Below, one piece after another: positions 3,868 through 22,768 of a stretch of DNA of 64,000 bases (position 1 is its first letter; each line of letters starts with the position of its first letter). A program made the position numbers and the translations under genes. A model generated the notes under the pieces. The model was given only the letters and a program-made list of their open reading frames with translations, ran no database searches and was not told where the DNA came from. Source of the DNA: Promethearchaeota archaeon (lineage in GTDB: Archaea; Asgardarchaeota; Lokiarchaeia; Sigyniarchaeales; SOKP01); the NCBI GenBank assembly GCA_016839705.1, contig JAEOTR010000041.1:50251-114250 (forward strand). Direction: 5' to 3'.

Positions 3868-3985
3868 TACATCACATGAAACCGTGCGAAAGATACGAAA
3901 ATAGAATTGATTTAAAAATATAATACAACATTAACAACATAAAAAAAATTTATTTATAACTTACCATTTAAGTAAACGGGAATTG

Positions 3986-4987
3986 ATGACTAGCACTGTA
4001 ATTGAAAAAGTTAACAACTTGTTAAAAAAGGCTAATTTTGAAACCTTTGTTTTAGGAAATTTTGCCACAAAGACGAGTAAATTTTGTTTTGATTTATTAG
4101 GAAAAAAGGATGATGTAGTGTTTAGTGTTAAAGTTTTTTCTAACATAGATAACATAAATCCCGAAGTAATTCAAGATATCAAATCACTTTCTCTGATATT
4201 AAAGTCTAAACCATTATTGATAGGATTGAAGAACCGATATCAAAAATTAGAAGATAATACAATATACGTAAGAGATGGATTACCTTTCATAACCGTTAAC
4301 ACGTTCGAGAATATTCTAAATAACAATATCTTTCCATATGTTTTAGCTCGGAGAGGTGGCGGCGTAATATTTCTGAATGGATTTTTGATGAAAAAAATAA
4401 GAGAAGAACATTCAATAACAAGAAAAGAGTTATCAGAACAATTAGGAGTAGCTAAGAGAACTATTAGTGCCTATGAAAATGAAAGTATGCGTCCATCGGA
4501 GGAAATGGCAGAAAAAATTCTAAGCATCTTAGAAAATAATGAAATTTTCAAAAAAATAAACATTTTCAAATGGAAAATTAAATACGACATGGATGCCCAA
4601 GAAATTTCTGAAGAAAAAGAGTTAAGTGAATTTGAATCGCATATAAAAACAATTATTGATGATATAGGATTATCGTCTTATTGGTATAAAAAAGCTACAG
4701 TTCCGTTCAAATTATCATTATTTTCCTCACTTAATCAAACAAAGAATGATGGTTTTTATCCTCTCTTTTCTAACATCTCTGAAGATCAGAATAATGTTAA
4801 TGAGATGAATTTTAACAGTTTGAAAATGTTCAATGATTTATTTCATAAAACAGCGTTATATATTATCGATAATAATGTAAGAATACCCGGAGCTACTAAA
4901 AGAAAAGATATCCATGTTGTAAAAATAAAAAATCTGGAAGAAGTTAATGATGAAGAAGAATTCATCGATCTCATTCAAGATTCATAA
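3986..4987 (+). CDS. Archaeal HTH-type transcriptional regulator (COG1395-like)
   Basis: A 333-residue protein. The N-terminal third (about 1-120) is an alpha/beta domain resembling the nuclease-like domain of a conserved archaeal regulator family. An XRE-type HTH follows at about residues 135-185 (ITRKELSEQLGVAKRTISAYE), then a C-terminal helical domain. Family identity is from overall layout and the HTH; no target is known. A TTG at 3983 directly precedes the ATG at 3986; either may be used. It ends 13 bases before the start of rnhB on the same strand, and an aaggaga Shine-Dalgarno-like sequence lies just after its stop. Confidence 0.75.
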   Translation: MTSTVIEKVNNLLKKANFETFVLGNFATKTSKFCFDLLGKKDDVVFSVKVFSNIDNINPEVIQDIKSLSLILKSKPLLIGLKNRYQKLEDNTIYVRDGLPFITVNTFENILNNNIFPYVLARRGGGVIFLNGFLMKKIREEHSITRKELSEQLGVAKRTISAYENESMRPSEEMAEKILSILENNEIFKKINIFKWKIKYDMDAQEISEEKELSEFESHIKTIIDDIGLSSYWYKKATVPFKLSLFSSLNQTKNDGFYPLFSNISEDQNNVNEMNFNSLKMFNDLFHKTALYIIDNNVRIPGATKRKDIHVVKIKNLEEVNDEEEFIDLIQDS

Positions 4988-5000
4988 GGAGAAATAAAAT

Positions 5001-5690
5001 TTGATCTGCGGTATTGACGAGGCTGGTAGAATATAATCTATCTCGGATTATATACCAAAAGGCCCCGTAATTGGTCCTCTTGTGTTATGTGGAGTTTGCT
5101 ATAAAGAATCCAATTTATCCTATTTAGAGCGGATTGGCGTAAAAGACTCTAAAAAATTAACTGCCAAAAGGAGGAGAATTTTAGCTAAATTAATAAAGGA
5201 ATCGTGCCATTCATTTAAAATAATTGTCGTTCCTCCCCGAGAAATTGATGAAAGGGAAGAAAAAAGAATTACTCTGAATAAACTCGAGGAATTAAAAATG
5301 GCTGAAATTATTAGAGAATTAAAACCTGATACTATCTATATTGACGCAGTTGATGTAAATGAAGAAAGATTTACCCAATCAATCCTAGACCTCTTAAATT
5401 ATAGCCCAAAAGAAATTATTTCAAAACATAAAGCTGATGACCTATTCCCTATTGTATCTGCGGCTTCAATTATAGCAAAAGATAAAAGAGATGCATTAAT
5501 TGAGGAATTAAAGGAAAAATATGGAGATTTCGGCTCTGGATATCCCTCAGATTTAAGAACCACAGATTTTCTTCGGGAATATATAAAGAAAAAACAAAAA
5601 ATACCCCCCTACGCGAGAAAAACATGGGATACAATAAAGAAAATAGTGGATGAAGAATTAGGAAACAAAAAAATAACCGATTTTTTCTAA
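5001..5690 (+). CDS. rnhB: Ribonuclease HII, gene interrupted by a 30-nt BHB intron
   Basis: RNase HII cuts the RNA strand of RNA-DNA hybrids and starts ribonucleotide excision. Exon 1 (5001-5029, TTG start, aaggaga 11 bases upstream) encodes M-I-C-G-I-D-E-A-G and the first two bases of Arg. Exon 2 (5060-5690) continues with GPVIGPLVLCG. Joined, they give the invariant GIDEAGRGPVIGP motif and a 219-residue protein, normal for the archaeal family. Catalytic acids are D6 and E7, with further Asp residues in IDAVD and AKDKRDA. Between the exons lies an in-frame TAA, so the unspliced message would stop after 11 codons. The rest of the gene is intact, arguing against a pseudogene. The C-terminus ends KKITDFF, resembling a PCNA-binding tail. 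Confidence 0.93.
5030..5059 (+). other. Predicted bulge-helix-bulge intron in the rnhB coding sequence
   Basis: This 30-nt segment interrupts the Arg codon of GIDEAGR. The RNA folds as a BHB. The central helix is TGGT (5024-5027) with ACCA (5054-5057). The 5' bulge is AGA (5028-5030) and the 3' bulge AAA (5058-5060). The inner stem is ATATAATC (5031-5038) with GATTATAT (5046-5053), 8 bp without mismatch, closed by a 7-nt loop. An outer helix between CGAGGC (5018-5023) and GCCCCG (5062-5067) has one mismatch and leaves one extra base. Cleavage after the second base of each bulge, as the archaeal splicing endonuclease does, removes exactly 30 nt and restores the frame. Confidence 0.9.
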
Positions 5691-22559: not shown

Positions 22560-22570
22560 GGAATAATAAC

Positions 22571-22643
22571 GGGCTATGAGGGAATCGAACCCCCGACCGT
22601 CAGGTTAAGAGCCTGCTGCGCTACCTGCCTGCGCTAATAGCCC
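22571..22643 (-). tRNA. tRNA-Lys (CUU)
   Basis: A 73-nt cloverleaf without intron. The acceptor stem is GGGCTAT/ATAGCCC, the D-stem GCGC/GCGC with GG in the loop, and the anticodon loop CTCTTAA gives anticodon CUU. The T-stem GGGGG/CCCTC encloses TTCGATT. CCA is not encoded. It lies head-to-tail with an intron-containing tRNA-Ser, 23 bases apart. Confidence 0.95.
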
Positions 22644-22666
22644 AAATAATATGTCCAATGAAAATG

Positions 22667-22768
22667 CGCAGATGGAGGGACTCGAACCCCCGAGCGCTCC
22701 CGCGCACTGGCTTGCTTGAATGCATTAGATACTCAAGGCCAGCGTCTTACCAGCTAGGCTACATCTGC
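22667..22768 (-). tRNA. tRNA-Ser (UGA) with a 19-nt intron
   Basis: Acceptor GCAGATG/CATCTGC with discriminator G73, and a long variable arm (class II). The anticodon stem CTGGC/GCCAG encloses C-U-UGA-G, then the intron, then A38. The anticodon UGA plus G73 point to serine. The intron at 37/38 leaves a mature length of 83 nt, equal to the other tRNA-Ser in this window. CCA is not encoded. Confidence 0.93.
22713..22731 (-). other. BHB intron of tRNA-Ser(UGA), position 37/38
   Basis: On the RNA, the 4-bp central helix CTTG/CAAG pairs exon bases 32-35 with the intron. Bulges are AGT (5') and CAA (3'), and the outer helix is the anticodon stem. The inner stem is weak because only 12 bases separate the two halves. 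The 19-nt length is near the minimum for such introns. Confidence 0.88.

Follow-up and report, generated by a model that had tools for sequence, protein, structure and literature searches.

The rnhB gene of a Lokiarchaeial genome raises the question of how an RNase HII could be made from a reading frame whose catalytic motif is split by a short insert with a stop codon. The gene lies in the window analysed here, a stretch of 64,000 nucleotides (contig C25:50251-114250, JAEOTR010000041.1) from a Promethearchaeota assembly (G000, GCA_016839705.1; 3.36 Mb, 97 contigs, 93% complete, 6.8% contaminated). An earlier note on this DNA had described a 30-nt segment, 5030-5059, with an in-frame TAA, and had read it as an archaeal BHB intron. 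Comparison with related genomes leads to the same answer: the insert is very probably a BHB intron, predicted to be cut by the tRNA-splicing endonuclease and closed by RtcB, and similar inserts interrupt other protein genes of the genus.

The rnhB locus and its insert

The rnhB gene runs on the + strand from a TTG codon at 5001 to the stop codon TAA at 5688-5690, with a gene for an HTH protein (3983-4987) upstream and convergent genes for fibrillarin and Nop5 downstream (Table 1). The bases 5001-5029 read TTG ATC TGC GGT ATT GAC GAG GCT GGT AG, and those from 5060 read A GGC CCC GTA ATT GGT, giving RGPVIG, with the insert falling inside the Arg codon of the catalytic motif DEAGR/GP, after its second base. 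The closest solved structures to exon 2 are those of RNase HII (2dff_A, E 4.6e-52). The bases of the segment are as the earlier note described them, and of its BHB anatomy the 8-bp inner stem, the TGGT/ACCA helix and the bulges AGA and AAA all stand; that the two exons may also pair in an outer helix had been missed. A T.G pair (5039/5045) supplies a ninth pair of the inner stem, below the loop ATCTC.

A second intact rnhB, with decay of the copy in the window, had been named as an outcome that would speak against an intron, and was not found: a search of the whole genome returned a single rnhB match. The insert recurs in two single-record entries titled chromosomes (CP070831.1 and CP070805.1), which bears on the other worry, an error of assembly. 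One rnhB match in the genome and the same insert in these two records rule out both a decaying second copy and an error of assembly.

Many genomes of the window's family, f1, have no ATG, GTG or TTG near the CG(I/L)DEAG of rnhB (upstream region of L001-L070), and their nearest in-frame start lies further upstream, where the HTH gene ends in another frame.

Table 1. Parts of the interrupted rnhB gene in the window, and inserts at other sites in genomes of the same genus
Feature	Positions	Strand	Description
rnhB exon 1	5001-5029	+	TTG start; MICGIDEAG and first 2 bases of Arg codon
Possible outer (exon-exon) helix, 5' strand GACGAGGC	5016-5023	+	pairing count
Central helix, 5' strand TGGT	5024-5027	+	pairs with 5054-5057; covariation
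5' bulge AG^A	5028-5030	+	predicted cut 5029/5030; register set by G043 (third bulge base T)
Predicted BHB intron, 30 nt, phase 2	5030-5059	+	in-frame TAA 5034-5036
Inner stem, 5' strand	5031-5038	+	8/8 pairs in G000; two-sided changes at all 8 pairs over 35 genomes
Apical loop ATCTC	5040-5044	+	loop end TC in 31/34 rnhB introns of 30 nt
Inner stem, 3' strand	5046-5053	+	covariation
Central helix, 3' strand ACCA	5054-5057	+	covariation
3' bulge AA^A(G)	5058-5061	+	predicted cut 5059/5060
rnhB exon 2	5060-5690	+	GPVIGP... to TAA 5688-5690; Pfam RNase_HII, E 1.9e-41
Possible outer (exon-exon) helix, 3' strand GCCCCGTA	5062-5069	+	pairing count
S3 site a (GLVIG-K/GGK)			30-31-nt insert; filled 3/18 (G018, G016, G006); rest empty, incl. 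G000
S3 site b (LE/PQIE)			30-nt insert; filled 4/18 (G018, G016, G006, G002); rest empty, incl. G000
AMP phosphorylase (DKHS-T/GGVPGNK)			30-nt insert; filled 7/15; empty 8/15, incl. G000
Thiolase			insert in one genome (G017); no empty allele read
P-loop GTPase			insert in one genome; no empty allele read

Filled and empty sites among relatives

Exon 2 served as the query against 97 genomes and matched in 90. Within the family f1, 61 genomes were searched, 56 matched and 55 were readable at the insert site, the match in G036 being partial. The alignment to relatives that the earlier note had proposed as a check yields exact empty sites: rnhB is filled in 35 of the 55 genomes and cleanly uninterrupted in 20. 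Filled sites make up 19/19 in the window's own genus (g1), 6/18 in g2, 3/5 in g3, 2/2 in g4, 2/3 in g5, 2/2 in g6 and 1/1 in g8, with 0/4 in g7 and 0/1 in g9. Outside the family, the insert was absent from all 15 genomes fetched of the 34 that matched. The inserts differ in sequence among genomes and are 30 nt long in 34 of the 35 cases and 28 nt in G034. Among 80 named GTDB loci, 14 carry an insert at the same nucleotide, namely 13 Loki contigs, apparently the same contigs as in the family count, and one Bathyarchaeon.

On a tree of 62 RnhB proteins, the presence of the insert requires 7 changes (7-8 over bootstraps, at least 4 being forced by well-supported branches), as against a mean of 20.8 for shuffled labels. 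One old gain followed by many losses is a possible history, as are a few gains. In the four genomes of genus g7 (L050-L053), RnhB reads GIDEAGRGCLIGSM in place of GPVLGPM and sits on a long branch.

Base pairing and splice register

The 35 inserts with their flanks (33 distinct) were aligned (alignment A1), and the BHB was counted as the earlier note had named it, without refitting. Paired cells amount to 86.3% of 393, compared with 73.3% in shuffled alignments and 34-43% after sliding by 1-3 columns (slid maximum 42.7%). Changes on both sides occur at 10 of the 12 pairs, two of the four central pairs varying on one side only, and the pair adjoining the 5' bulge is found as U.G, G-C, U-A and C-G. 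The covariation score is 0.420, against 0.201 +/- 0.017 for shuffles (0/500 reach the real value) and at most 0.089 for slid controls. Kinship alone can beat shuffles, but the slid controls keep the relatedness and yet drop to chance. The structure has the elements of the cbf5 type, with two 3-nt bulges (4 nt on the 3' side if the outer helix forms), a 4-bp central helix and an inner helix, and compensatory changes between species preserve its pairs.

The folding energy of the 90-nt window sequence is unremarkable (z = -0.19), so that one sequence alone is no proof and the comparative evidence carries the case. Vienna favours the inner stem in 30 of 34 inserts; the central helix exceeds P = 0.5 in only 6 of the 34, five of them from the window's own subclade, because many relatives hold two or three G.U pairs there. 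Rfam has no match at the insert, only a sub-threshold lncRNA match beside it.

The possible outer helix, GACGAGGC with GCCCCGTN, has 6-7 of 7 pairs in all 34 thirty-nt cases (7 in 24, 6 in 10; 6 in G000) and forms only with a 3' bulge of 4 nt (AAAG), not 3, whereas in a canonical hBHBh' intron the outer helix would directly follow a 3-nt bulge. Among 16 intronless genes of the family, a count that leaves out 4 further genes (g7), the same positions give 7 pairs in 2, 6 in 6, 5 in 6 and 4 in 2. The Glu codon of the motif is GAG in 35/35 insert-bearing genes compared with 13/20 intronless ones. Both contrasts could be explained in part by shared ancestry.

If both bulges are cut behind their second base, Arg and an intact DEAGRGP result in 35/35 genomes. 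The register is fixed by G043, in which the third base of the bulge is T, and a later cut would give Ser; the empty S3 alleles described below fix it as well. The tRNA-endonuclease rule by which the earlier note had restored frame and motif thus holds throughout. An in-frame stop codon is present in all 35 inserts, as against about 57% of shuffled inserts. Covariation, exact empty sites, the stop codons and the splice rule together support the BHB reading: the comparison is proof of the BHB structure, from which we infer that the rnhB RNA itself is spliced. The tRNA-splicing endonuclease would excise the 30 nt from the rnhB mRNA at 5029/5030 and 5059/5060, and RtcB would ligate the exons; unspliced RNA would presumably yield no active RNase HII. 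The further idea that splicing is regulatory found no support, and no regulatory function is needed to explain the inserts.

Inserts in other genes of the genus

The covariance model R2, built from the rnhB inserts and run on 58 relatives, gave 27 rnhB matches and 17 others. Eight of the others were examined, and four were real (one each in S3 and thiolase, and AMP phosphorylase in G013 and G018); L212, L215/L184, L185 and L246 were rejected. Some of the weak extra matches of this model fall inside interrupted genes, namely S3 (G018), thiolase (G017) and AMP phosphorylase (G013). A second model, R3, combined 12 rnhB rows with 4 others; applied to all 19 genomes of the genus, it produced 37 matches with E up to 5, recovering all 19 rnhB inserts together with 18 others. 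Each of the best nine of these (E up to 0.2) is located in an interrupted gene, four being rows of the model and five new; from the nine weaker matches, seven were examined (L245-L249, L254, L255), and none was convincing. Under R3 the rnhB insert is the sole match in the window's genome, and the match L218, from a model run on that genome, was rejected.

The host genes were identified from the sequences on either side of the inserts. The two halves of S3 match KH_2 and Ribosomal_S3_C in Pfam, and those of AMP phosphorylase match Glycos_trans_3N and Glycos_transf_3. Thiolase matches Thiolase_N at 23 bits, below the cut-off, its second half having no Pfam match, and the GTPase was recognised by eye on the strength of its P-loop. 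Searches of the 19 genomes detected S3 in 18 and AMP phosphorylase in 15 (Table 1). For S3 site b in G018, the BHB rule was applied before the empty alleles were read and gave LE-M-PQIE; 14/14 empty alleles read LEMPQIE, matching the predicted splice product. The AMP phosphorylase inserts have 4/4 central and 8-9/9 inner pairs, and a change from TAGC/GTTA to CAGT/GCTG is seen among them.

Thirteen of the 15 tabulated non-rnhB inserts are 30 nt long (the insert of G002 at S3 site b was read, and stands outside this set). The remaining two are 31 nt long (G016 and G006, S3 site a); in the fixed register they pair at 5-6 of 9 inner positions and, judged by eye, a single bulged base recovers their stem. 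At S3 site b, the central helix has only 2-3 of 4 pairs. The R3 listing misses 3/4 of the S3 site-b inserts and 4/7 of those in AMP phosphorylase, so its sensitivity is limited, and further BHB introns of about 30 nt probably exist in these genomes.

Generic searches proved less useful. A generic BHB scan of the window for inserts that join open frames gave 36 candidates including rnhB, and its reversed and complemented controls were uninformative; candidates at about 55287 (with NAD kinase and PIN neighbours) and in the frame through 58429 were examined and rejected. A relaxed scan over 400 kb of G004 returned at least several dozen matches, compared with 60 for a parallel-pairing decoy. A strict 30-nt scan of the same 400 kb, whose loop rule misses the window's own insert, gave 2 unconvincing sites, compared with 8, 2 and 11 in Markov shuffles. 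Such scans are too unspecific in AT-rich DNA, so only covariance models together with gene context are informative.

One mobile family or separate origins

A common layout of 4/3/9/5/9/4/3 (4-bp central helix, 3-nt bulges, 9-position inner stem and 5-nt loop) is found in 13 of the 15 tabulated non-rnhB inserts, all of 30 nt. The loop end UC, present in 31/34 rnhB inserts, is also that of most inserts at S3 site a and in AMP phosphorylase, thiolase and the GTPase, and loops of the ANNUC type occur in rnhB, S3 site a, AMP phosphorylase (4/7), thiolase and the GTPase. This sharing of size, geometry and loop by most inserts suggests, without proving it, that the inserts of different genes may descend from one another. 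We tentatively propose, at slightly under an even chance, that the Lokiarchaeia harbour a dispersed mobile family of 30-nt mini-introns, a single structural element spliced by the tRNA endonuclease and RtcB and copied by reverse splicing or through cDNA into several protein genes, with RNase HII, S3 (twice), AMP phosphorylase, thiolase and the GTPase as putative hosts. That the inserts would move by either of these steps is speculation. Introner elements of eukaryotes are short, near-uniform introns multiplied over genes; unlike the putatively mobile Loki inserts, introners are spliceosomal and far more numerous.

The inserts might instead be BHB introns by anatomy that arose separately in each gene, their size and loop being set by the preference of the endonuclease, a reading that we hold possible at somewhat under an even chance. 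The enzyme recognises structure, and the loops at S3 site b are of other types (TAATC, ATGAA, GTCTA and, by eye, AATTA in G002), as separate origins would allow. The identical length and layout of 13/15 non-rnhB inserts and the recurrence of ANNUC loops at five host sites count against it.

A Bathyarchaeal case also favours separate origins. Candidatus Bathyarchaeota PFL18 (L126:1471-1499, JALHTG010000036.1) carries a 29-nt BHB-like insert, different from those of the Lokiarchaeia, at the same rnhB nucleotide. By eye it has a TGGG/CCCA central helix, bulges AGA and ATG and inner GAGC/GCTC pairs; the Vienna minimum fold of the site does not show the BHB. The genome has two EndA genes. The case, from one MAG of another phylum, suggests that this conserved coding stretch of rnhB is a preferred insertion site.

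Readings of the rnhB insert without splicing

A ribosome could in principle hop over the hairpin with no RNA splicing at all. Translational bypassing, as in phage T4 gene 60 and the mitochondrial byp elements, would account for a short, stop-containing hairpin within a conserved frame, and for the 28-nt insert of G034, as any length can be skipped. Known bypass elements need matched take-off and landing codons, whereas here the take-off AGA (AGT in G043) faces AAA, ATA or ACA at landing. Moreover, hopping requires neither the pairing of the insert's 3' end with the exon nor that of the exons with each other, and it is the splice rule that predicts the Met of the empty S3 alleles. We regard bypassing as very improbable.

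It is equally hard to credit that rnhB is simply broken, or encodes a shortened protein initiated within or downstream of the insert, the version given in public gene models. In favour of this, the annotated starts of relatives fall in the insert or behind it, and the list of open reading frames offers a start at 5082. Among the best 120 of 3020 matching database proteins, the joined motif (regular expression DEAGRG) occurs in 54, and in 0 of the 27 closest to the window among the 120 matches listed; these 27 start within or downstream of the insert. Database proteins are translations of DNA and uninformative on splicing. Against this reading, the DEAGR of exon 1 is retained in 35/35 insert-bearing genomes, with synonymous changes, and a protein without DEAG would lose catalytic Asp and Glu; the exon 2 matches of all 35 are free of stops, and G000 has no other rnhB match. 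Unlike decaying sequence, the insert is maintained and covaries. Group I or II introns are ruled out by the size of the inserts (28-31 nt, as against a core of hundreds of nt) and the lack of an Rfam match, and an intein or in-frame peptide insert by the stop codon in 35/35 and the 28-nt case.

Splicing machinery

The predicted BHB intron calls for a tRNA-splicing endonuclease and a ligase. A search of the 58 relatives with the EndA profile PF01974 found the endonuclease in 57, with two genes in 46, three in one and one in ten, the last including G000 (93% complete), where only one was found. Intronless genomes likewise carry two EndA genes, and the distribution of the enzyme therefore does not follow that of the insert. 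Of the two types, the first was read in G004 (the EndA domains of which lie at C1:3057881-3058105 and C1:1978706-1978954); its residues 18-198, of 198, can be aligned with the tRNA-splicing endonuclease 3p1z_B, which we take to be from Aeropyrum (E 5e-36), and the alignment includes the presumably catalytic Tyr, His and Lys positions. The second type matches another solved tRNA-splicing endonuclease, 1a79_A (E 7.5e-25). A partial, third endonuclease-like match is present in one genome of the family (G025:C53:22042-22209). The two subunits may form a heteromeric enzyme that accepts relaxed BHB substrates. As predicted from sequence, the pair fits the two-subunit (alpha-beta)2 splicing endonuclease described in the available text of PMC6379350, and that of PMC2738675 connects a hetero-oligomeric endonuclease with the unconventional BHB in cbf5 pre-mRNA.

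The RtcB gene of G000 is on the window's contig, outside the window. Of 20 tRNA genes found in this genome, ARAGORN assigns introns to 11, and splicing of the tRNA type must therefore be in routine use. Introns are present in 92-95% of the tRNA genes of three other Asgard genomes, according to the text available of PMC11291895. In the window, an intron-containing tRNA gene (Glu TTC; 22667-22768, - strand) adjoins tRNA-Lys at 22569-22644 and appears when ARAGORN is run with introns, being absent from the default tRNA scan. A 135-nt tRNA gene at L205 (G000:C76:33586-33720, - strand), which ARAGORN could not resolve, maybe holds more than one intron.

Comparison with known BHB introns

The nearest precedents are the cbf5 pre-mRNA introns of Desulfurococcales and Sulfolobales, the splicing of which was shown by cDNA (PMC2738675, here and below as far as its available text goes). 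Like these, the Loki inserts place a BHB in coding sequence with predicted cuts between the second and third bases of the bulges, have an unconventional BHB suited to a hetero-oligomeric endonuclease, and are compatible with an old gain and losses by lineage (PMC2738675). They differ from cbf5 in gene and phylum, in their near-uniform 30 nt, in affecting several genes and sites of one genus, and in being known from DNA, whereas cbf5 splicing is backed by cDNA (PMC2738675). For the tRNA BHB introns of Thermoproteales, transposition by an unknown mechanism was proposed (PMC4090602, available text); similar introns across host genes that depend on the endonuclease are common to both systems, but the Loki hosts are protein genes, and spread is suggested there by geometry and loop only. 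The HVO_1309 mRNA of Haloferax volcanii contains BHB sites in its 5' UTR (PMC7714728, in the part available). Cutting of an mRNA by the splicing endonuclease, as in HVO_1309, is predicted for the Lokiarchaeia; unlike the HVO_1309 sites, which lie outside the coding frame, the Loki insert disrupts the frame within the active-site motif (PMC7714728).

As of 2020, cbf5 was the only additional BHB intron reported besides the HVO_1309 case, going by the same text (PMC7714728). In the partly accessible literature searched, without bioRxiv and most subscription journals, no BHB intron is recognised for rnhB, S3, AMP phosphorylase or Asgard coding genes, in agreement with the earlier note, which had known of none for rnhB; cbf5, a single crenarchaeal gene, is the one case found in print of a BHB intron that lies within archaeal coding sequence. 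New beyond that note are the comparative proof of the structure, the fixed splice register, the empty alleles and the further genes.

Implications

In Asgard archaea, the group in which eukaryotes are thought to have originated, housekeeping genes seem to rely on the machinery of tRNA splicing, and one ribosomal protein gene among them carries two inserts. The active-site motif is missing from public gene models of intron-bearing rnhB, and insert-bearing genomes would probably be misread by sets of marker genes with S3 among them. The exact empty alleles in sister genomes make the gain and loss of protein introns open to study in Asgard archaea. If the inserts are indeed a mobile family, relatives of the eukaryotes would own intron-bearing protein genes without a spliceosome.
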